64,000 nucleotides of DNA from Spongiibacter sp. IMCC21906 (GTDB lineage Bacteria > Pseudomonadota > Gammaproteobacteria > Pseudomonadales > Spongiibacteraceae). Location of the stretch: the NCBI RefSeq assembly GCF_001010805.1, contig NZ_CP011477.1, positions 2,557,001 to 2,621,000 of the forward strand, given 5' to 3'. The stretch's first letter is position 1, and every line of letters starts with the position of its first letter. The notes under the pieces are model-generated. The model was not told the DNA's origin, ran no database searches, and worked only from the letters and a program-made list of their open reading frames with translations. Shown here piece after piece: positions 9,677 to 21,000 of the stretch. A program made the position numbers and the translations under genes.

Positions 9677-10825
9677 GTGTCTATGATTAACAGCAAACTC
9701 CCCCACGTCGGCACCACTATTTTCAGCACAATGTCTGCGCTGGCCGCTAAACACGGCGCACTGAATCTGTCGCAGGGCTTCCCGGATTTTGCCACCCCCG
9801 CGCGATTACTGCAGCAGCTCAATCACCACGCCCTTGCAGGCCAAAATCAATACCCGCCCATGAGTGGCGTTGCCGACTTGCGCAGTGAAATCGCCAAATT
9901 GGTCGCACGTTGCTACCAGCGAGAGGTGTGCCCAGAGCAAGAGATCACCGTCACCTCAGGCGCAACAGAAGCCTTATTCGTCGCCATTCACACCCTGATT
10001 CAAGCTGGGGATGAAGTGATTATGTTCGACCCCGCCTACGACAGCTACGAACCGGCTATTGCCTTGGCTGGCGGCCGCTGTAAACGACTGGCACTCTCTC
10101 CCCCAGATTACCGACCAGACTGGCAACAAGTGGCTGACGCCATCACCGACAAAACCCGCTGTATTATCGTCAATAGCCCCCACAACCCCACCGCCACGTT
10201 GCTGAGCAAACAAGATTGGCTGCAACTGGAAAAACTGGTTTTAGAAAACGAGCTGTTCTTAATTAGCGACGAGGTTTACGAGCACATTGTGTTTGACGAC
10301 CACGCCAGATTGAGCGCCAATAGCTTTCCCGACCTAGCAAGCCGCAGCTTTGTGATCTCCTCCTTTGGCAAAACCTTCCACTGCACCGGCTGGAAAACCG
10401 GCTACTGCGTCGCCCCCAAAGCCTTAAGCCGGGAATTTAGAAAAATTCACCAATTTGTTACCTTCACCAGCTTCACCCCAGCCCAACACGCCCTGGCAGA
10501 TATGCTAGCCGAAGAGCCAGAGCACATTGATCAGCTTGGCGCGTTCTATCAGCAACAGCGAGATTATTTTGCATCAGAAATGGCCGCCAGCCGCTTCACA
10601 TTGTTACCCAGCACCGGGACCTATTTTATTCTCGGAGATTTCAGCGCCATCAGTGATATGGCCGACACGCAATTTTGCGAATGGCTAACAGAAACCGCTG
10701 GCGTCGCCGCCATCCCGCTCTCGGTCTTTTATGAAACGCCGCCAGACAGCAAAATTATTCGCTTCTGTTTTGCCAAACAACACAGCACCTTGCAAGCCGC
10801 CGCGAAGAAACTATGCCTGCTATAA
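9677..10825 (+). CDS. class I PLP aminotransferase, methionine/glutamine transaminase type (YbdL-like)
   Basis: Fold-type I aminotransferase of 382 residues. LSQGFPDFATP at 31-41 and QYPPMSGVADLR at 58-69 are typical of the YbdL/kynurenine aminotransferase group. NSPHNPT at 166-172 and SDEVYEHIVF contain cofactor contacts, and the Schiff-base lysine is Lys232 in SSFGKTFHCTGWKTGY. The likely reaction is transamination of methionine or glutamine with 2-oxo acids, including the last step of methionine salvage. The GTG at 9677 has AAGGGAA 9 nt upstream; the ATG at 9683 is a less well spaced alternative. It is 17 bp from the omega-amidase start, a pairing that fits the glutamine transaminase/omega-amidase pathway. 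Confidence 0.9.
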   Translation: MSMINSKLPHVGTTIFSTMSALAAKHGALNLSQGFPDFATPARLLQQLNHHALAGQNQYPPMSGVADLRSEIAKLVARCYQREVCPEQEITVTSGATEALFVAIHTLIQAGDEVIMFDPAYDSYEPAIALAGGRCKRLALSPPDYRPDWQQVADAITDKTRCIIVNSPHNPTATLLSKQDWLQLEKLVLENELFLISDEVYEHIVFDDHARLSANSFPDLASRSFVISSFGKTFHCTGWKTGYCVAPKALSREFRKIHQFVTFTSFTPAQHALADMLAEEPEHIDQLGAFYQQQRDYFASEMAASRFTLLPSTGTYFILGDFSAISDMADTQFCEWLTETAGVAAIPLSVFYETPPDSKIIRFCFAKQHSTLQAAAKKLCLL

Positions 10826-10842
10826 AGAGGTCTTCTGTCAAT

Positions 10843-11625
10843 ATGAAAGCGATAAACGTTGCCGCGTTACAAAGCGACCTGCACTGGCAATCACCAGAAG
10901 CAAACCGCAGTCATTTTGCCGCCCAAATCAGCCAACTGACACAGGTCGATCTCATTGTTCTACCGGAGATGTTTACCACCGGCTTTTCCATGGCCAGCAC
11001 AGACATTGCCGAACCCAACGACGGCCCGACCCTAAGCTGGATGAAAACCCAAGCCAACACCACCGGCGCCGCCATTACCGGCTCCGTCGCCATTAACGAT
11101 GACGGCGACTACTACAACCGCATGTACTGGGTAGAGCCCGACGGCCGCGTTACTCAATATGACAAGCGCCACCTCTTCCGCATGGCCGGAGAACACCAAC
11201 ACTACAGCCCCGGCAGCCAGCGGATTATTGTGCCCTGGCGAGGCCTGCGCTTTTGCCTGCAAGTCTGCTACGACCTCCGCTTTCCCGTGTTTTCCCGCAA
11301 TCGCAACGACTACGACGCCCTAATCTACATCGCCAACTGGCCCGCCGCCCGCGCCCATGCCTGGAAGAGCCTGCTACCCGCACGCGCCATTGAAAACCAG
11401 TGTTTTGTAATCGGCGTGAACCGCGTCGGCAAAGACGGCAATGGCCATGACTATAGTGGTGATAGTGTGATATTAGATTACATGGGCAAAACGCTGGAAA
11501 GTGCTCCGGAAAATGTCAGTAAGACACTAAGCAGCTCCCTAGATATAAGCGCACTCAATGAATTTAAAGAAAACTTCCCAGCCGAACTAGACGCAGACAG
11601 ATTTGAGCTTTCTATAACGGGTTAA
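10843..11625 (+). CDS. yafV: omega-amidase YafV-like carbon-nitrogen hydrolase
   Basis: Nitrilase-superfamily enzyme of 260 residues that probably hydrolyses 2-oxoglutaramate or 2-oxosuccinamate to the 2-oxo acid plus ammonia. The catalytic triad is visible: Glu42 (LPEMFTTGF), Lys108 (YDKRHLF) and Cys142 (QVCYDLRFP). The ATG at 10843 is preferred over the one at 10813: AAAGAGG at 10824-10830 lies upstream, and the protein proper begins KAINVAALQSD. It sits directly after the aminotransferase, which would supply its oxo-amide substrate. Members of this branch are sometimes annotated only as amidohydrolase. Confidence 0.9.
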   Translation: MKAINVAALQSDLHWQSPEANRSHFAAQISQLTQVDLIVLPEMFTTGFSMASTDIAEPNDGPTLSWMKTQANTTGAAITGSVAINDDGDYYNRMYWVEPDGRVTQYDKRHLFRMAGEHQHYSPGSQRIIVPWRGLRFCLQVCYDLRFPVFSRNRNDYDALIYIANWPAARAHAWKSLLPARAIENQCFVIGVNRVGKDGNGHDYSGDSVILDYMGKTLESAPENVSKTLSSSLDISALNEFKENFPAELDADRFELSITG

Positions 11626-11891
11626 TCATCAAATACCGTATAAAATAAAGTGGCCGGACCACCTTGGGGCTTTGAGCGCAGATGCTATTATCTTTTATTC
11701 ATTGAATATATTTAGCGTATTAATTGAAGAATCACACGCCTTTAGCAAATATCTCTGAGATGTTGCTAATCACCACGTCGGCCAAAATCCAATTCGTCCT
11801 ATCCTTGGTATAGCAGTAAGATTGTCTAAAACCTGTAATTATTTGTTGTAGCATAAAATACCAACCGCCACGCCAACAAAAGGAATCCACT

Positions 11892-12455
11892 ATGAATGCC
11901 GTTCGTCAGTTCTTCTTGATGGTCTTGGCATGGGGCTGCGCAAGTTTAGGCAATGCCACAGCCTGGCAGTGCCCCGATAGTCTCAACGCTAGCCGCCCCA
12001 CGCTGGAAGCGGGTGAGCTAAACCTGTGCGACACGGTAAAAAGCGCCAAAGCGGTATTGGTGGTGAACACTGCCAGCATGTGTGGTTTTACGCCCCAGTT
12101 TGAGGGCTTAGAGGCGCTTTATCAGGAGTTTAAAGATCAAGGTTTACTGGTGATGGGCGTGCCCACGGCGGATTTTGGCGGTCAGGAATACGAGGACGCG
12201 GAAAAAACCTCCAAGGTCTGCCACGCCAATTATGGGGTGAGTTTTCCGATGTTTCGCAAGGCCTGTATTCGCTGCGACAACCCCGATCCACTTCTCGCGT
12301 TGGTGGCCAAAGCCAGCGATACCAAACCGAAATGGAATTTCTACAAATATGTGTTTAATCCCCGTACCGGCGAAGCGGAAAGTTTTTCATCAATGACCAA
12401 GCCCGATGCCGACTCACTGCGCAAAGCGATTACCGCTATTCTCAATGAAGAATGA
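11892..12455 (+). CDS. glutathione peroxidase family protein, exported
   Basis: Thiol peroxidase of 187 residues with an N-terminal signal peptide (hydrophobic 5-22, cleavage probably after NATA near 24), so it acts in the periplasm. The catalytic cysteine is Cys64 in NTASMCGFTPQF, replacing the selenocysteine of animal enzymes. The Gln is in ADFGGQE at 94-99 and the Trp in KWNFYKYV. Four further cysteines (Cys27, Cys46, and the CIRC pair) are unusual and could be resolving or structural. AAGGA at 11879-11883 provides the ribosome-binding site. It overlaps the next gene by ATGA. The family reduces hydroperoxides, often with thioredoxin rather than glutathione. Confidence 0.9.
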   Translation: MNAVRQFFLMVLAWGCASLGNATAWQCPDSLNASRPTLEAGELNLCDTVKSAKAVLVVNTASMCGFTPQFEGLEALYQEFKDQGLLVMGVPTADFGGQEYEDAEKTSKVCHANYGVSFPMFRKACIRCDNPDPLLALVAKASDTKPKWNFYKYVFNPRTGEAESFSSMTKPDADSLRKAITAILNEE

Positions 12456-13492
12456 AGACAGCCGCGTTGCTATTTGTTGCGCTGGCGCTATTAGCCTGTA
12501 GCGTCAGCAGTCCGCTCGGCCCGTCTTGGCAGCGCTATATTTCAAGACTCGAAAATGTCTTGGACCGTAACGCCACCGCGCCCCAGCCCCAAGACTTTCT
12601 CCATTACCCCAAACAGCGCGATCTCGTCGTGGCTTTCTCATCTCCCAGCATTAATCTGTTGGACTTTTTACAGCTACGCAAATGCAAACTGGGAGAAACC
12701 ATTGCCCAGCGCAATAGTATTCTGGGTAAGCATAGCGATGCCGCTGGGCGATTGATTTTTGATTTGCAGTTTCTTGCCCAACTGGAAGACTGTTTAAAAA
12801 CACTGGATCAGGATAACGACACCGAACTGCGGCAAAGCCTGAAAAAGGCTGGCGCAATTAAACAGCAGGAATTACCTGCACGCATTTTTGCCGCCAGTTT
12901 GGCTGGCCCGGAATTTCGCGAGCTGTGGGCCAAACCCAATCGCGCACAAACCTACCCCATCGACGGTGCAGACCCGGCAATTAAGCCTTTAAAACAGTGG
13001 TTGCGTTGGCAAAAAAACTGGCTGGCTGGCGAGTGGCAAATAAACCCGAATGCTGTATTGATGACCCTTGGTGAAATTCGCAAAGGTCTAGCGGGGGACT
13101 TATTGAATGCACAACGGCTAAATCTAGCAGGGCTGATATCAGCCACCGCGTTGATTGACAGTCGCCTTGGCAACAGGCCTCTTTGCCTTGTCGGATCATC
13201 GCCACCGGCTGCCAGCCATTTTCGAAATGTGCTAAGCAAATTTTTTATTGCCGATATTCAAAAAACCGCCAGCCGTATCAACCGTCATCAGCAGCAGTTA
13301 CTACCGGTGATACACGACATTGAAACTACGCTGTTTGAGGTGATGGCATCGGCAGACATCAAGCTGCCTGAGCAGTACCGGCAATGGCAAAGCAACCGAC
13401 AACAGCTTTTTGAGTTGCTTATTCAAGCCCATCGAGACCACGTTAACGCAGCCGGTGCCTTACTACATCAATGCGGTATGACGCCGGGTTAA
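12452..13492 (+). CDS. DUF3080-like lipoprotein
   Basis: Protein of 346 residues with a lipoprotein signal: MKTAALLFVALALLAC, lipobox cysteine at 16. The mature part is mostly helical and has no catalytic motif I can name. Segments such as YISRLENVLDR, LLDFLQLRKC and WQSNRQQLFELLIQAHRDHV suggest the DUF3080 family of gammaproteobacterial lipoproteins; that assignment is from memory. It is translationally coupled to the glutathione peroxidase through an ATGA overlap. Its stop codon shares bases with the stop of the convergent RimK-like gene. Confidence 0.72.
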   Translation: MKTAALLFVALALLACSVSSPLGPSWQRYISRLENVLDRNATAPQPQDFLHYPKQRDLVVAFSSPSINLLDFLQLRKCKLGETIAQRNSILGKHSDAAGRLIFDLQFLAQLEDCLKTLDQDNDTELRQSLKKAGAIKQQELPARIFAASLAGPEFRELWAKPNRAQTYPIDGADPAIKPLKQWLRWQKNWLAGEWQINPNAVLMTLGEIRKGLAGDLLNAQRLNLAGLISATALIDSRLGNRPLCLVGSSPPAASHFRNVLSKFFIADIQKTASRINRHQQQLLPVIHDIETTLFEVMASADIKLPEQYRQWQSNRQQLFELLIQAHRDHVNAAGALLHQCGMTPG

Positions 13493-14955
13493 CGACGTCG
13501 CTGCTCCATTCGACGCAAAAACACATCCATCACCGATTGGTACAAGCCTTCGCCTAAAAACAGGTCTTCGACACCCGAATCTATGCTGGGGTTGTCGTTC
13601 ACTTCAATCACTACCACCTGCTTATCATTCTGTTTTATATCTACGCCATAAAAGCCATTGCCAATTAATTTGGCCGCTTTAGTGGCGGCATCAATGACCT
13701 TCTTGGGCGCTTCGTAAGTAGGCATGGTATCAAAGCCACCTGACTGACTTTTACTGCTGCTGTGCTTATAGATTTGCCAGTGGTTTCTCACCATGTAGTA
13801 ACGGCAGGCATACAGGGGTTTACCGTCCAGCACGCCAATGCGCCAATCGTATTCGGTATACATAAACTCCTGGGCCAACAGCAGCGCCGACTTATCCAGC
13901 AGGCGCTTACTTTCACTCACCAAGGCGTCCCAGTTTTCTACTTTAACGACACCCCGAGAAAAAGCCCCGTCAGGTACTTTTAATACGATTGGGAAACCCA
14001 ATGTATCTGCGATTCGACGTAATTCCTCGTCATTATCCCGGCGCAAAAATTCGGTTTTGGGTACAGGCACTTTGTGACTGCGCAACAGGTCAGCGAGATA
14101 AATTTTATTGGTACAGCGCAAAATAGAGGTGGAATCGTCCATCACCACCAAGCCCTCCGCCTCGGCCTTTTTAGCAAAACGATAGGTGTGATGATCCACC
14201 GCGGTGGTTTCGCGAATAAACAAGCCGTCGTATTCCGGTAGACGCAAATAATCCTTACGGGTAATCATTTCTGCAGAAATTCCCAGCGACTCCGCAGCTT
14301 TGACAAATCGACGCAGTGCGGTTTTATTACTGGGAGGCAATTTTTCTTCCGGGTCCACCAAAATAGCCAGGTCATAACGAAAGCGTTTTCTGGCTTTGGG
14401 TTTACGCCACATTTTGCTACTAAAGGCTTCAAAAGTAGCGGCAAAGCCCTCCTGCTCTTCATTACCCTGCAAATTTTTCAGCGACGTAACTTGCACTTTG
14501 CGCAGCCGCCATTGGCTTTTATATTCCAGCGAAATTTCTAGCAACGGACAGGGAAAACGCTCAAATACGGCTTTTGAAAATGCGCTGTGCTCTGCCGACA
14601 AGGTTTCGCCAAACCAACTGTGAATTTCCCGTACATCGCCATTTTTTCCCGCCGGGAGTTTTGCCAGCAACGGCTCAATCCCTTCCCATTGGATAGCCGA
14701 TAATGATTTTCGACCCAATTCGCTCAAGGTTTTTACCGAAGGCAGCACATTGTGCCCCCTTGCCTCGGCAAGGAGAGAACAATAATAACCCGTACCCAAA
14801 TAGCGATAGCTTCGACAAAGATTAATCACCCTGACCCGCTCTTCTCCATTCGAGGCAACCCGCTCCAAATAGTCATCAAAGGTAATCACATCCTGGCTGG
14901 GGAAATAGGGCGACCAATCTTTCAGGTCGTCCACTACGACGTAAAACTGGGCCAT
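13489..14955 (-). CDS. RimK-family ATP-grasp ligase with RLAN N-terminal domain
   Basis: Protein of 488 residues. Residues 1-190 form the RimK-like N-terminal (RLAN) domain (MAQFYVVVDDLKDWSPY, NLCRSYRYLGTGYYCSLLAEARG). The C-terminal third is an ATP-grasp domain: PKTEFLRRD, FPIVLKVPDGAFSRGV, AQEFMYTEYDWRIGVLDG, and the metal-binding VVVIEVNDNPSID. ATP-grasp enzymes of this group join a carboxylate to an amine through an acyl phosphate, typically adding amino acids to a peptide or protein. It is divergent from the GNAT/C39 gene and two genes from the QEGLA gene, a neighbourhood that implies a shared peptide substrate. The target is unknown. It is not ribosomal RimK itself, which is about 300 residues and lacks the RLAN domain. 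Confidence 0.88.
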   Translation of the reverse strand: MAQFYVVVDDLKDWSPYFPSQDVITFDDYLERVASNGEERVRVINLCRSYRYLGTGYYCSLLAEARGHNVLPSVKTLSELGRKSLSAIQWEGIEPLLAKLPAGKNGDVREIHSWFGETLSAEHSAFSKAVFERFPCPLLEISLEYKSQWRLRKVQVTSLKNLQGNEEQEGFAATFEAFSSKMWRKPKARKRFRYDLAILVDPEEKLPPSNKTALRRFVKAAESLGISAEMITRKDYLRLPEYDGLFIRETTAVDHHTYRFAKKAEAEGLVVMDDSTSILRCTNKIYLADLLRSHKVPVPKTEFLRRDNDEELRRIADTLGFPIVLKVPDGAFSRGVVKVENWDALVSESKRLLDKSALLLAQEFMYTEYDWRIGVLDGKPLYACRYYMVRNHWQIYKHSSSKSQSGGFDTMPTYEAPKKVIDAATKAAKLIGNGFYGVDIKQNDKQVVVIEVNDNPSIDSGVEDLFLGEGLYQSVMDVFLRRMEQRRR

Positions 14956-15012
14956 GCTGGGCGTCTCGTAAAAGGGCTGTAATGGTCGGCATTCTGAGGC
15001 CAGTTTTTACCA

Positions 15013-15040
15013 TTCACAATATGCAAATATGGATTGTGAA
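15013..15040. promoter_or_regulatory. palindromic operator candidate in the divergent RimK-like/GNAT-C39 promoter region
   Basis: TTCACAAT at 15013-15020 and ATTGTGAA at 15033-15040 form a perfect 8-bp inverted repeat with a 12-bp AT-rich spacer. It lies about 60 bp upstream of the RimK-like start and 75 bp upstream of the GNAT/C39 start, so one regulator could act on both. Confidence 0.5.
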
Positions 15041-15069
15041 GAGTAAATATTGCGCAGTATTATCCCCCA

Positions 15070-15099
15070 GCTGACGGAGCGGTTTCGCCAGCCGTCAGC
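15070..15099 (+). promoter_or_regulatory. hairpin in the GNAT/C39 leader
   Basis: GCTGACGG at 15070-15077 and CCGTCAGC at 15092-15099 form a perfect 8-bp stem. It ends 15 bp before the ATG and there is no T run, so it is more likely a translational or mRNA-stability element than a terminator. Confidence 0.45.
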
Positions 15100-15114
15100 A
15101 CAACTGGAAACACC

Positions 15115-16245
15115 ATGTCAGACCCGATAATTCGCAATGCCACAAGCAGTGATATCGACGCTTTGCTGGAGCTGGAGCAACAGTGTTTTGCTGGCGACCG
15201 ACTCTCTCGCCGCAGTTTTAAACGCTTTTTAAAACCGGGCCCCCACCAGCTCGCCGTGCTGGTCGACAACGATGCCATTCTTGCCTATAGCTTGCTGCTG
15301 TTTCGTTCTGGCACGAGCTTGGCAAGGCTCTATTCCATAGCGCTCGCACCCCAATGCCGGGGACGAGGTTTAGCTGCCCTTCTGTTAGACGATGCCCACA
15401 ACCGGGCCCGGCAAGCGAACTGCGTTTTTTTGCGCTTAGAGGTCCGGGAGGATAATGCCCCGGCCATCGCTCTTTATCGTAAAAAAGGCTATGCCTGTTT
15501 TGATACCGTTGACAATTACTACGAAGACGGCAGCAAGGCGCTGCGCTTTGAAAAGCGCTTAAACCTGGCTGCGCATAGCAGCGACCAGAAAATGCCAAAC
15601 TATTACGCCCAAACCACTGATTTTAGTTGTGGCCCCGCCGCACTGATGATGGCCATGCATAGTTTGGATAAGTCTGCGCCTATTAACCGCAGCGAGGAGC
15701 TGCAACTGTGGCGAGAAGCCACCACCATTTTTATGACTGCGGGTCACGGGGGCTGCTCGCCCCACGGCCTGGCACTGGCGGCATTACGGCGTCAATTTGC
15801 TGTAACACTCTATATCAATACTGCCGACACGCCCTTTATTGACAGTGTTCGAAGTGACGAAAAACGCAGTGTAATTGAGCTGGTCCATCAGCAGTTTTTA
15901 ACACAGCTTAGCGAATACAACATGCCGGTGGAGATAAGTCCGCTGGGGCAGAAGCAGTTCCGAGAAATACTCGAACAGCAAGAACATCTTGTTGCTCTTA
16001 TCAGTACTTGGGCACTTAACAGAAACAAAGCCCCTCACTGGGTGTACATCAACAAAAGCGATCAAAATTACGTGTATGTTAATGACCCAGATACTGACGA
16101 TACACTCTGGCAAACCGAGGCAGATTGTCGACATGTGCCGGTCAGTATTGATGCGTTTATTGCCATGGCCAGTTTTGGCCGCCGACGTCTGCGTTGTTTG
16201 CTAGCGATTCATCCCAAACCAGGAGGCACATCAAACGCCCAATGA
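15115..16245 (+). CDS. GNAT acetyltransferase fused to a C39-like cysteine peptidase domain
   Basis: Two-domain protein of 376 residues. Residues 4-148 form a RimI-like GNAT domain with the acetyl-CoA loop LAPQCRGRGLAALLL at 77-91 and ALYRKKGY at 119-126. Residues 160-370 form a C39-like (papain-fold) domain: Cys172 in TTDFSCGPAALMM, His308 in APHWVYI and Asp324 or Asp326 in VNDPDTD make a plausible triad, with the oxyanion Gln in YYAQTT. Bacterial C39 domains usually cut leader peptides at double-glycine sites, but here there is no ABC transporter, so the role is probably cytosolic processing. The gene overlaps the QEGLA gene by ATGA and is divergent from the RimK-like ligase. Confidence 0.85.
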   Translation: MSDPIIRNATSSDIDALLELEQQCFAGDRLSRRSFKRFLKPGPHQLAVLVDNDAILAYSLLLFRSGTSLARLYSIALAPQCRGRGLAALLLDDAHNRARQANCVFLRLEVREDNAPAIALYRKKGYACFDTVDNYYEDGSKALRFEKRLNLAAHSSDQKMPNYYAQTTDFSCGPAALMMAMHSLDKSAPINRSEELQLWREATTIFMTAGHGGCSPHGLALAALRRQFAVTLYINTADTPFIDSVRSDEKRSVIELVHQQFLTQLSEYNMPVEISPLGQKQFREILEQQEHLVALISTWALNRNKAPHWVYINKSDQNYVYVNDPDTDDTLWQTEADCRHVPVSIDAFIAMASFGRRRLRCLLAIHPKPGGTSNAQ

Positions 16246-17534
16246 AAACAGATTATCCCCAAGCGCTCAGAGAGCTTTCTGATGAATTAATTGCCATCCA
16301 AAAACCCATTTTAATTTTGGATAGCATTAAATGGCCCCAGCGTATCCAAGAGCAATTTCTAGCCACCGGTGCCAACGCTCTTCCTGACATTGGTCCCGAC
16401 TACTATCAACAGCTGCCCCTGAGCTTTGATCCCAACAGCAAACGACAAGCATTGCTTGGACTTCGTAAAAAAATTCAACAGCGCCTGGGTAAAGACGATC
16501 CCCTTGGCAGTATTCTTTGCGAGACCATTGAGCAGTATTTAATTGTCATTGATTTACTTAGCCAACGTGGCACCCCCGGTTTTATGGCCGCCAGCAAAAA
16601 ACTTTATGGCTCGGCTCGGGACCATTTACGCGGTGACAAAATGACCTTGATAGAAATGGGCCAGCGACTTTGTCATATTTTTTCACTGCCAGCGGCCAGC
16701 CACCTTGCAGCCGCCTACCCCAAAAACATCCCTGCCGACGAAGCCGTAAATCAACTCCAACAGCGGCTGTTACCCTACTTTGCCGACAGCGCTTTTAGCG
16801 TTAAAGAGACCGACGGTATTGTTTCTGACGCCTCTGCCGGTGGCGATTGCATAAAGGTCAACACCCATGCAGCGTTCTCAAGCCTGGACATTCAAGTATT
16901 GGAGGTACACGAAGGATGGGTGCATGTTGGCACAACATTGAATGGCCGTAATCAACCCTGGGCCAGCTGGCTCAGCGTGGGATCGCCGCGTATCACGGCG
17001 CCCCAAGAGGGCTTGGCGGTGTTAATTGAAACGCTGACTTTTAGCTCCTTTCCCGCCAGAGCACGACGCATTAGCGACCGGGTTGTTGCCATCGACCTGG
17101 CGGAAAATGGCGCCGATTTTATGGAGGTCTATCGCCACTTCATCGATCAGGGTTTGAGCCAAAAAGACAGTTACAAAATTGCCCAGCGGGTATTTCGTGG
17201 CGGCGATGTGCGTGGCGGGAGTTGCTTCACCAAAGACTTGTCCTACGTCAAAGGCTTTGTGGAAACCGTGAATTTTATTCGCTGTGCGATTTTATCAAAT
17301 CGCCCGGAGGTGTTGCCGTTAATGTTTGTCGGCAAGGTGGCTTTAGATGACGTGCCCACCCTTTACCACTATCAACAACAAGGTCTTATTGAGGCACCCC
17401 GTTACCTTCCCCCCATGTTTAAAGACCTGAACGGCTTATATGTCTGGTTTGGTTTTTCTAGCGGTATGTCCTTGCTGGACATTGGCAGAATACAAGATCA
17501 TTTCAAGGCCTTGTTTGAGCGCCAAGGGCTGTAA
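16242..17534 (+). CDS. DUF1704 'QEGLA motif' metallopeptidase-like protein
   Basis: Protein of 430 residues carrying both family hallmarks: a metal-binding HExxxH (His223-Glu224-...-His228, HEGWVH) and the invariant QEGLA at 255-259. This is the group historically named flavohemoglobin expression-modulating QEGLA protein. Eukaryotic relatives in the same DUF1704 family are MATCAP tyrosine carboxypeptidases. A carboxypeptidase or aminopeptidase role is therefore reasonable but not shown for the bacterial group. The ATG at 16242 overlaps the stop of the GNAT/C39 gene; AGGAGG at 16221-16226 lies 15 nt upstream. With the ATP-grasp ligase and C39 peptidase it completes a set able to build and trim a peptide. 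No flavohemoglobin gene is in this window. Confidence 0.87.
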   Translation: MKTDYPQALRELSDELIAIQKPILILDSIKWPQRIQEQFLATGANALPDIGPDYYQQLPLSFDPNSKRQALLGLRKKIQQRLGKDDPLGSILCETIEQYLIVIDLLSQRGTPGFMAASKKLYGSARDHLRGDKMTLIEMGQRLCHIFSLPAASHLAAAYPKNIPADEAVNQLQQRLLPYFADSAFSVKETDGIVSDASAGGDCIKVNTHAAFSSLDIQVLEVHEGWVHVGTTLNGRNQPWASWLSVGSPRITAPQEGLAVLIETLTFSSFPARARRISDRVVAIDLAENGADFMEVYRHFIDQGLSQKDSYKIAQRVFRGGDVRGGSCFTKDLSYVKGFVETVNFIRCAILSNRPEVLPLMFVGKVALDDVPTLYHYQQQGLIEAPRYLPPMFKDLNGLYVWFGFSSGMSLLDIGRIQDHFKALFERQGL

Positions 17535-17659
17535 ACGGTTTTGCAGCGAGGCCATAACAGCGACCAAAAATAAAATCATCCTACAAGTTGTAGGCATGCC
17601 GACACGGCTGCCGCAAGGCAGTCTGAGGGTGGACCACATTGCGGCAAACATAAAAGCAA

Positions 17660-17941
17660 TTAACCGTAAATGCAGAGATACGCTGTGTTAACGGTTACTT
17701 TAAGATTGAACTTGCTTTTACCGGGAACATTAAAACCCTGACCAGCAGAAAATGTCTCCCAGTCATCACTGCCCGGCAGCTTTACCGTCAAGGCACCGCT
17801 TAACACTTCCATACGCTCTTCGGCGTCGGTACCAAATTCATACTCACCCGGCCCCATCACACCAATAGACTCGGGTTTGGCCTCACCGTCATAACCTAGG
17901 GATTGCACGGCACCATCAAAATAACTGTTGTGTTTAATCAT
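17660..17941 (-). CDS. ppnP: pyrimidine/purine nucleoside phosphorylase PpnP
   Basis: Small cupin of 93 residues that phosphorolyses several nucleosides to base plus ribose-1-phosphate. The sequence follows E. coli PpnP (YaiE, DUF1255) closely: [42 protein letters not shown], and the C-terminal YLCIYG motif is complete. It converges with the QEGLA gene and lies 81 bp after the stop of the RND permease gene's neighbouring region with no shared operon evidence. Confidence 0.93.
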
Positions 17942-18022
17942 TTAAAAATCCAAGAGTGGAAATAAACAGGGCCGGCAATCATACCGGCCCAATCAACGCG
18001 ACACCAGAACGCCAGCGCCTTG

Positions 18023-21000
18023 CTAAGCCTCTGCCTGCTTGGCGTGGCCATAGTCCCGCCCCACATACAAATACATGGCTGGCACAACATACAAGGTAAA
18101 CAACGTCCCAATTGACATACCAGAGGCAATAACCAAGCCCATTGCAAAACGGGATGAGGCACCTGGGCCACTGGCGAGCAATAGCGGTATCATCGCCATG
18201 ACCAAGGCTGCGGTCGTCATCAAAATGGGCCGCAGGCGAATAGACGTCGCCTCTTCAATCGCCTCACGTTTAGAAAGCCGGTCATCTTTCTGCAAACGGT
18301 TGGCAAAATCCACAATCAAAATACCGTGTTTAGAAATGACCCCAATCAAGGTAATCAAACCGACCTGGGTATAGATATTCAGCGTCATACCAGGAAAGTT
18401 ACTCAGCTGCATACCGTTGGTCAGCGCCAACAGGTTAATGGTCAGCAATGCCCCACTGATCGACATAGGCACAGTCACCAGAATGATTAATGGGTCCCGG
18501 AAGGACTCAAACTGCGCGGCCAACACTAAATAAATAATAATGATCGCAAACAAGAAAGTCGTCGCCAATGCATTACCTTCTTGACGGAGCTGCCGAGAGG
18601 TACCGCTGTAATCAATGCTAAACCCGGCAGGCATGACCTCTGCAGCAATATTCTCCACAATTTCCAACGCCTCGCCCTGGGTAACATCTGGCCGGGGCAC
18701 GGCAACAATGGTATTGGAATTGAGCTGCTGAGCATGGGTAATGGATCGCGGCACAGTGCGGTCGACAATATCAACCACCGTAGACAGCGGGATCAAATCG
18801 CCGCTGCGGGTGCGAGTATAAAAGTCTTTAAGCTGCTGGGGGTTCAAGCGTTCTTCCCGCTGAACCTGGGCAATCACTTTGTAGGAGCGCCCCTGGTAGG
18901 CGAAACGATTGACTTCGGCACCGGCCATTAAAGCAATCAAATCGGCGCTGAGGCTTTGCATATCCACCCCCATCAGAGCCGCCTTTTCGCGGTTAATTCG
19001 CAGCTCGGATTCAGGGCGATCAAAATTCAATTGGGGGGCTGCAAAAAAGAAACGGTTGCTCGCCATAATTCGCCCGACAACTTCACTTCCCACTTCGGCC
19101 AATGTTATGGGGTCAGCGGTAGACTTTAACACCAATTCGACCGGATACCCCTGACCCGGCGTGGGCAATGGTGGTGGTTCAAACAGGGCTATTCGCACAC
19201 CTGGCACGGCATTAAGCTGAGGCGTGAGCTCTGCGGCTACCTCACTCATGCTTTGATCTCGCTCGTCCCATGGTTTGCCGATCAAGCCCACAAAACCTTG
19301 GTTGGCTTCTAAAAAACCACCCGAGGCTTGTGCAAACGTATGGCCAACCGACGGGTGGTCAATGCCAATTTTATTGCTCTTGACCATAGAGTCTTTCAAG
19401 TATTCTGCAGAGGCGTAGCCATCGGCATCAAGCAAAACCCCAACGAAACCCAAGTCCTCACCCGGTGCCAGTTCAGATGCCGTGGTGCTGTATAAATAAA
19501 CGCAGGACAACAATACAAGCAAACCAAATATCCCCACCACATGACGGTGGTTCATCGCGTTGTGGGCAGAGCTTTTGTATTTTTTGCGTAAGAACTCAAA
19601 TTTCTCATCGAGGAAAACCTCCATACGATTTTCCTCGCCATCTGCACCATGCGAGGCTTTAAGCATTTTGCCGCACATCATTGGCGTTAAGGTCAGTGCA
19701 ATGACCCCAGATATCAATACTGCCCCAGCAAGGGTAAAGGCAAACTCGGTAAACAGGGTGCCGGTAATACCGGTTAAAAAGCCAATAGGAGCATAGACCG
19801 CCACCAGCGTAATCGTCATGGCAATAACGGGCCCGACCAGTTCTCTGCCGCCTTTAATCGCCGCGTCCCTGGGGGACATGCCCTCTTCGATATGCCGATG
19901 AATATTTTCCAGCACGATAATGGCGTCATCCACCACCATACCGATGGCCAATACCATCGCCAGCATGGTTAACAAATTAATAGAGAAGCCCATGCTGTAC
20001 ATAAAAAACAAGGCGCCAATCAGCGATAACGGCACCGTAACGGCAGGAATCACCGAGCTCCGCAGTGAGCCCAAAAACAGGAAGATCACCACGATAACAA
20101 TTATCACGGCTTCGATGAGCGTCGCCTGTACATCGGCAATGGCACGGTCGACATATATAGTACTGTCGTAGCCAATCACGCCGTCCAAGCCTTCTGGCAT
20201 GGCCTTCACGATTTCGGGCCAGCGCGATTTAACCTGGTCAATCACGTCCAACAGGTTGGCATCGGGACGGATAAAAATACCAATAAAGACGCCGGGAGAC
20301 GCGTCCCAGTATGCCACCGCATCATAATCTTCTGTGCCAAACTCCACCGTTGCCACGTCTTTAAGTTTGACCATCGCATTATCTTCGGAGCGAACAACAA
20401 GATTTCGAAACCCCTCAAGATCGTTCAGATCGGTATTTGCCGCCATACCAATTCGCACATAGGCACCTTTGGTTTGGCCTACGGCAGATAAAACATTCTC
20501 TCGCCGAATGGCATCAAAGACTTCACTGGCACTCAGGTCATGAGCCTTTAGCTTGGCCGAATCAAGCCACACCCGCATGGCATAGGGCTGCCCCCCATCA
20601 ATAATAATGCTCTCTATGCCCGAGATAGAGACCAACTCCGGCTCGACAATACGGGTGAGATAATCGGTAATTTGGGTCTTACTCATAGACTCAGATGAGA
20701 AAGACAAATACATAGACGCGGTTGAGTTTGCGTTTGCTAACTGGATAACTGGATCTTCAGCGCCATCGGGAAGCTGACTGCGCAGCTTGTTCACCTTGGT
20801 GGAAATCTCCGTTAGGGCTTCGTTGGGATCTTTAGTCAGTAAAAGATTAGCGGTAATGCTGGAGACGCTTTGGCTAGAATTTGAGGTTAAAAAGTCAATG
20901 CCATCGGCGGTGGCAATCTCTCTTTCCAGTGGCGTGGTAATAAACCCCTCAACCAACTCCGGGTCAGCACCGGGGTAGGCAACGCTTACCGTAATCTGAG

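Follow-up and report, generated by a model that had tools for sequence, protein, structure and literature searches.

The genome of Spongiibacter sp. IMCC21906 (3.48 Mb) carries three adjacent genes encoding an RLAN-ATP-grasp ligase, a GNAT acetyltransferase fused to a C39-like cysteine peptidase of the DUF3335 type (GNAT-C39), and a metallocarboxypeptidase-like protein of the DUF1704 (QEGLA) family, for which Pfam now uses the name MATCAP, microtubule-associated tyrosine carboxypeptidase. All three lie in a stretch of 64,000 nucleotides that was analyzed as a whole and is referred to here as the window (contig NZ_CP011477.1, C1:2557001-2621000). The general picture is that the ligase and GNAT-C39 form a fixed core pair, which MATCAP joins as a lineage-restricted third member. 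On the basis of sequences, structural models and analogy, we tentatively favor the view that the proteins could make up a module in which a ligase extends the C-terminal end of a peptide or protein and peptidases trim it, much as in the RimK/RimB system or the tubulin tyrosination cycle. An initial annotation of this DNA had listed the three genes, whose positions were confirmed by the open reading frame (ORF) list of the window and by profile searches, and had pictured the ligase and the peptidases acting together, which is the best reading here too.

The ligase and GNAT-C39 as a core pair

Judged from its domains, the ligase appears complete and is what the initial annotation had taken it for: the Pfam search gave an RLAN domain (PF14401, E = 6.7e-44, residues 27-168) and a RimK-like ATP-grasp domain (about residues 281-459; PF08443, E = 1.5e-9, residues 283-459). 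Asp439, Glu451 and Asn453, which we take from family knowledge to be the likely Mg/ATP residues, are invariant in an alignment of 58 sequences. The AlphaFold2 (AF2) model has a pLDDT of 88.9, and its top fold matches, obtained with the whole model rather than with the RLAN domain alone, are ArgX with the carrier LysW, D-Ala-D-Ala ligases, LysX and RimK. The protein falls outside the RimK family proper (TIGR00768, 80.5 bits versus a cut-off of 143.4), and the Pfam search returned no Rimk_N domain in it.

The second protein appears to combine an intact papain-like C39 peptidase with a GNAT domain resembling N-alpha-acetyltransferases. The GNAT domain (about residues 5-150; Acetyltransf_1 in Pfam, 3.7e-14) is closest to RimI/NatA-like protein N-alpha-acetyltransferases (RimI/Ard1/NAA10), and the C39 part (residues 163-365) matches the Pfam entry DUF3335 'Peptidase_C39 like' at 5.2e-81. 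Cys172 and His308 are invariant and Asp324 is present in at least 90% of the 42 aligned sequences; the Cys172/His308/Asp triad named in the initial annotation is thus borne out at the level of residues, with Asp324 as its third member, and the C39 fold suggests that the three would be catalytic. Some long DUF3335 frames (611-779 aa; L181, L183 and L201) were considered as further fusions and rejected, their extra N-terminal stretches being frame overlap as judged by eye without a profile search.

Co-occurrence and linkage were counted in an order sample of 244 genomes and a class sample of 185 genomes. All of these counts ignore kinship, linkage in the order sample was computed from coordinates transferred by hand, linkage in the class sample was counted by reading match lists, and weak matches were dropped beforehand (PF10994, 42 of 73 genomes; DUF3335, one order-sample and four class-sample genomes). 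In the order sample, RLAN is present in 107, strong DUF3335 in 97 and MATCAP in 56 genomes. Every one of the 97 genomes with strong DUF3335 also has RLAN, in 79 cases within 5 kb. The class sample gives 29 genomes with strong DUF3335, 28 of them with RLAN and 27 with RLAN within 5 kb. We also inspected 60 RLAN neighborhoods, hand-picked from the genomes with RLAN (44 in the class sample and 107 in the order sample), and found GNAT-C39 in 48, another C39 type in 8, DUF2817 in 8 and MATCAP in 2, where two neighborhoods (G190 and G216) had been chosen because MATCAP is near. The window contains the same pair, an RLAN-ATP-grasp gene beside GNAT-DUF3335. As RLAN accompanies DUF3335 in 97 of 97 order-sample genomes and MATCAP is linked to DUF3335 in few families, we regard RLAN and GNAT-C39 as the core and MATCAP as having been added in some lineages.

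The C39 peptidase has another recurrent neighbor in other genomes, DUF2817, which on profile evidence is an AstE/M14-like zinc hydrolase (it also matches AstE/AspA profiles and, weakly, M14 carboxypeptidase profiles). Of the 23 order-sample genomes with DUF2817 and DUF3335, 19 have the two within 5 kb of each other, one of these genes being split over two contigs; some genomes have both DUF2817 and MATCAP, and many have neither.

MATCAP as a third member and its links to ATP-grasp ligases

The third protein is, as far as sequence and model indicate, an apparently intact zinc carboxypeptidase of the MATCAP type. It matches PF08014 (E = 1.3e-129; 432.8 bits versus a gathering score of 27) and TIGR02421 (QEGLA; E = 1.3e-109; 366.9 bits versus a cut-off of 338.65), and its closest named relatives are from Spongiibacter and Zhongshania, the latter being 77-80% identical over the best segment. 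We took ATG 16242 as the start, the mechanical ORF list beginning earlier at TTG 16194; counted from this ATG, the HExxxH and QEGLA motifs fall where the initial annotation had put them (residues 223-228 and 255-259). His223, Glu224, His228 and Glu256 are invariant among 30 aligned sequences. Glu256 is likely to be the third zinc ligand; in TMCP1, an EEG motif is described as the putative third metal ligand (excerpt of PMC10499314). For the AF2 model (pLDDT 84.1), Foldseek ranked chains of human MATCAP (7z5g/7z6s), among them free and microtubule-bound structures, in the first five places (E = 2.7e-5 to 5.5e-5), with M32 carboxypeptidases next. The initial annotation knew of no biochemical function, which does not apply to the QEGLA family: MATCAP/TMCP carboxypeptidases include biochemically tested members that strip C-terminal residues from tubulin, shorten glutamate chains and spare branch points (excerpt of PMC10499314).

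Relatives of MATCAP are encoded on 469 genome-contig stretches, of which the best 80 were kept. That the three genes should occur together elsewhere was a check proposed with the initial annotation, and RLAN, GNAT-C39 and MATCAP are indeed found together in 14 of these best 80 loci. The order is that of the window in nine of the 14, DUF2817 stands between RLAN and GNAT-C39 in four, and L124 differs. All four genes are present in four trio loci (L093, L094, L099 and L116), and Litorivivens lipolytica (L116, L237) has them together. A Nitrincola locus in which RLAN/C39 is about 6.3 kb from MATCAP (L144) was left out of the trio count, and in two other Nitrincola loci (L134 and L137) RLAN/C39 are not in the stretches covered.

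In all 14 loci measured, MATCAP is directly downstream of GNAT-C39, with a candidate start between -20 and +68 nt from the GNAT-C39 stop. These include L236, from another family, whose MATCAP has a very long branch in the tree (6.0) and overlaps the GNAT-C39 stop by four bases, with RLAN elsewhere in the genome. In L203, MATCAP is one gene away from GNAT-C39-DUF2817-RLAN and on the opposite strand. The MATCAPs of L236 and L203 branch apart from those of the Spongiibacteraceae in the tree, both on very long branches. The placement of such long rows is unsure, so that independent recruitment of MATCAP is likely, not proven. In the window, the overlap between the two genes makes translational coupling likely, and the addition of MATCAP to GNAT-C39 is probably not accidental.

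MATCAP also meets ATP-grasp ligases of other classes. Of the loci with a long MATCAP (mostly about 630-690 aa), 8 of the 9 in the class sample and 9 of the 12 in the order sample (17/21) have an ATP-grasp gene of the glutathione-synthetase type (GSH-S) next to it; the pairing is missing from G105, G363 and G380 and from G298, which lies at the edge of a contig. MATCAP stands tail to tail with rimK-rimB in G152. L268, L270 and L280 have raw matches of a RimK query at no more than about 3 kb from MATCAP, and L010 has a RimB-like piece at a distance of about 1.1 kb.

Separately, a MATCAP gene noticed in G027 (C45:2571-3666) is interrupted by several in-frame stops and appears to be a pseudogene, and L015 (G164, C22:492-3084) has a tandem pair of MATCAP genes. 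An expression table for low salinity lists a QEGLA-motif gene of Photobacterium damselae at 27.51 (excerpt of PMC10308900), a hint that osmotic regulation of MATCAP genes is possible.

A tentative tail-modifying module and its alternatives

In the module that we favor, the ligase would turn the carboxylate at the C-terminus (or on a side chain) of an acceptor into an acyl phosphate and attach an amino acid there, most probably one that is acidic; MATCAP, as an accessory trimmer, would strip residues singly from that C-terminus; the C39 domain would cut at a fixed point and thereby release or reset the tail; and the GNAT domain would acetylate the amine thus exposed and so keep the product from being used again. 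Tail length would be set by the balance of ligase and trimmers, as for RimK/RimB on S6 and TTL/MATCAP on tubulin, and the acceptor would probably be encoded elsewhere. The parts list and the neighborhoods alone are observed, and from them we infer direction, donor, acceptor and order of the steps.

Several observations weigh against such a module. D-Ala-D-Ala ligases are as close to the ligase in fold as RimK is, and the GCS2 and GSH-S partners in related loci suit small peptides as much as protein tails. MATCAP gave a fold match of moderate quality (TM 0.46-0.50 normalized by query length, at 16-17% identity), and searches of PDB sequences with MATCAP gave nothing real, although the fold comparison did find relatives. 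Linkage is also patchy. Among the 38 order-sample genomes with both MATCAP and DUF3335, the two are within 5 kb in 13, ten of which belong to the window's own family; by family, linkage is seen in only 4 of 14, one of these being L203 with its intervening gene and inverted MATCAP. In the class sample, the genes are linked in one of the four genomes with both. RLAN is absent from 65 of the 80 kept MATCAP loci, and the notion of the three genes as one conserved system, as the initial annotation had it, had to be given up in favor of a core pair. Other short MATCAPs outside the groups described above mostly have no ATP-grasp neighbor in the stretches examined. Around solitary MATCAP genes, the neighbor clusters, named by eye from first residues, are lineage-specific (thymidine kinase in Aeromonas, EF-G in Methylomicrobium, HtpX/fumarase/aldehyde dehydrogenase in Pseudohongiella-like organisms), and no shared ligase was seen among them, which argues against an obligate link.

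The strongest alternative, less likely but a serious competitor, is a small-metabolite pathway in which the ligase makes a di- or tripeptide that is N-acetylated by GNAT and recycled by the peptidases, similar to N-acetylglutaminylglutamine amide (NAGGN) or glutathione-like pathways, with no protein being modified. The NAGGN pathway has an ATP-grasp enzyme, a GNAT and a peptidase, like the parts in the window. Seven of the eight hand-picked RLAN neighborhoods with the second C39 type hold the glutamate-cysteine-ligase-like gene GCS2, in an arrangement with a further gene that was labelled FGase by script, without a profile search; the long MATCAPs pair with GSH-S, and 7 of the 9 class-sample loci have a profile-supported FGase (PF05013) as well. 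In addition, the GNAT domain matches TIGR03103 weakly (2.7e-4), and no acceptor gene was found near the locus. On the other hand, the NAGGN peptidase differs from those of the window, the NAGGN synthetase TIGR03103 does not exceed its cut-off of 569 bits in the organism's own genome, and the GNAT domain resembles protein acetyltransferases most closely. The best folds of the ligase include ArgX, LysX and RimK, which act on protein or peptide C-termini, though D-Ala-D-Ala ligases are there too, and the tested MATCAPs act on protein tails (excerpt of PMC10499314).

It is improbable that only RLAN and GNAT-C39 constitute a system and that MATCAP is a housekeeping carboxypeptidase sharing a transcript by chance in one clade. 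The many MATCAP loci without RLAN nearby and the variety of their neighbors fit this idea, and MATCAP and strong DUF3335 meet at chance level in the class sample (4 of 185 genomes versus about 4.9 expected). The order sample speaks against it, since the two meet there more often than expected (38 versus 22.3 genomes, kinship again ignored). So do the overlapping or near-touching genes throughout the Spongiibacteraceae, linkage in three further families (f172, f197 and f203) with other gene orders, distant MATCAPs being involved in f172 and f203, and the fact that MATCAP is repeatedly paired with ATP-grasp ligases of other kinds.

A ribosomally synthesized and post-translationally modified peptide (RiPP), or bacteriocin-like peptide, that is processed and exported, with C39 cutting the leader, is very improbable. 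ATP-grasp ligases occur in RiPP-type clusters, and the DUF3335 part has the C39 fold; it is, however, fused to GNAT, and PF03412 stayed below its cut-off in the Pfam search. No ATP-binding cassette (ABC) exporter was found among the eight neighboring proteins at 9677-17941 by Pfam search or, by eye, among the ORFs of at least 80 aa at 8-24 kb of the window, in agreement with the initial annotation. A search of 30 small ORFs (20-79 codons, outside listed genes, 9-24.4 kb of the window) drew attention to a 30-codon ORF between the ligase and GNAT-C39 (14982-15074, +), which is matched in three of the 14 trio loci (L087, L088 and L089, all Zhongshania). Its changes are spread evenly over the codon positions, and no more than 1-2 of the 9-11 codons with changes are synonymous, a pattern not expected of a gene whose protein product is constrained; conserved promoter DNA is therefore the simpler reading. 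The remaining small-ORF matches are weaker and overlap the 30-codon ORF, the end of MATCAP or, in a relative, the ligase gene. The intergenic region is likely to hold the promoters of both divergent genes; a promoter scan was uninformative, with one match in 11600-18200 versus 7.1 in shuffles.

An anti-phage defence island can practically be dismissed, as none of the three proteins matches a PADLOC defence model at E <= 0.01 and the neighbors are ordinary metabolic genes.

Known counterparts and layout of the locus

RimK and RimB offer the closest parallel for the proposed module, as a ligase of the same ATP-grasp superfamily with a dedicated reversing peptidase. The window ligase differs in its RLAN domain, and its partners are C39, GNAT and a zinc carboxypeptidase instead of the aspartic RimB. 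RimK adds glutamates to the C-terminus of S6 (excerpt of PMC12239564), and RimB takes glutamates off polyglutamated RpsF (excerpt of PMC11957791). The genome has its own RimK (8.3e-64, C1:672 kb) beside a Zn_protease (2.4e-39), and no RimB (PF05618) adjoins the window ligase, the three Zn_protease matches of the genome lying at 51, 541 and 673 kb versus 2557-2621 kb for the window. At C1:538798-541666, an ATP-grasp match lies 2-3 kb from a Zn_protease and resembles the Pseudomonas rlo operon. Given this and the RimK/Zn_protease pair, the cell would have several ligase-peptidase modules, that of the window among them. RloA/RloB/RloC of Pseudomonas aeruginosa likewise tie a cytoplasmic ATP-grasp protein genetically to peptidases (excerpt of PMC12239564), but these are secreted aspartic peptidases and come with a membrane protein, none of which is present at the window locus.

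With the tubulin system, the likeness lies in MATCAP itself, which shares Pfam family, HExxxH and third glutamate, and predicted fold with MATCAP/TMCP. TTL, the tubulin tyrosine ligase, is an ATP-grasp enzyme. The window MATCAP is, however, only 16-17% identical and part of a bacterial cluster, tubulin is not a known substrate, and the window ligase is outside the TTL family. That such enzymes (ATP-grasp ligase, MATCAP, DUF2817, C39 and GNAT) should provide a bacterial C-terminal tail code of the tubulin-code type, with the MATCAP family having arisen in these clusters and the tubulin role in eukaryotes being derived, strikes us as improbable.

Diverse peptide ligases were reportedly linked to peptidases of unrelated folds by Iyer et al. 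in 2009. The RLAN/C39/GNAT amidoligase neighborhoods resemble the window in having an RLAN-ATP-grasp gene with the DUF3335-GNAT fusion; this fusion has been noted, with Iyer et al. 2009 cited for a possible ligase or acetylase role (excerpt of PMC10318531), and the mention of computational predictions in the initial annotation is thus correct in outline. The general ligase-peptidase theme had been predicted before, and the pairing with MATCAP is the newer part: no report of a bacterial MATCAP joined to a ligase was found in the open-access literature searched, and in the literature found (excerpt of PMC10499314 among it) MATCAP enzymes were studied on tubulin. If bacterial MATCAPs trim tails made by neighboring ATP-grasp ligases, they would offer a simple bacterial system for finding substrates, and the unrelated ligase classes (RLAN, GSH-S and perhaps RimK) would be independent places to look. 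The module would suggest a testable role for the pair of ligase and cysteine peptidase, the latter of which is present in 97 of the 244 order-sample genomes, each time together with the ligase, and the kinship of MATCAP with the human trimmer of tubulin tails, as suggested by sequence and model, would make the gene set a testable bacterial parallel.

The initial annotation was right about the adjacency of the three genes (Table 1), and a single-operon layout does not apply: since the ligase is encoded on the strand opposite to GNAT-C39 and MATCAP, the genes form a divergent unit.

Table 1. Coordinates of the ligase, GNAT-C39 and MATCAP genes and associated features in the window
Feature	Position	Strand	Size and basis
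RLAN-ATP-grasp ligase	13489..14955	-	488 aa; Pfam/NCBIfam, invariant residues, AF2 model
Divergent intergenic region, ligase / GNAT-C39	14956..15114		Partly kept in Zhongshania (alignment)
GNAT + C39-like peptidase DUF3335 fusion	15115..16245	+	376 aa; Pfam/NCBIfam profiles, alignment
GNAT-C39 codon C172	15628..15630	+	
GNAT-C39 codon H308	16036..16038	+	
GNAT-C39 codon D324	16084..16086	+	
MATCAP/DUF1704 (TIGR02421 QEGLA) metallocarboxypeptidase-like protein	16242..17534	+	430 aa from ATG; profiles, AF2 model
ATGA overlap, GNAT-C39 stop / MATCAP start	16242..16245	+	Sequence; 4-base overlap also in distant locus L236
HEGWVH (HExxxH) putative zinc/catalytic motif, MATCAP residues 223-228	16908..16925	+	Invariant, 30 sequences
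QEGLA motif, MATCAP residues 255-259	17004..17018	+	Sequence, alignment

On the other side of the ligase, a DUF3080 gene (12452-13492, +) lies downstream of a glutathione peroxidase gene, and the 3' ends of the DUF3080 and ligase genes share four bases; of the 14 trio loci, only the five from Zhongshania were found to have DUF3080. Further upstream, a gene for a methionine-type aminotransferase is followed by an overlapping carbon-nitrogen hydrolase gene of the NF007757 family (together 9677-11625, +).

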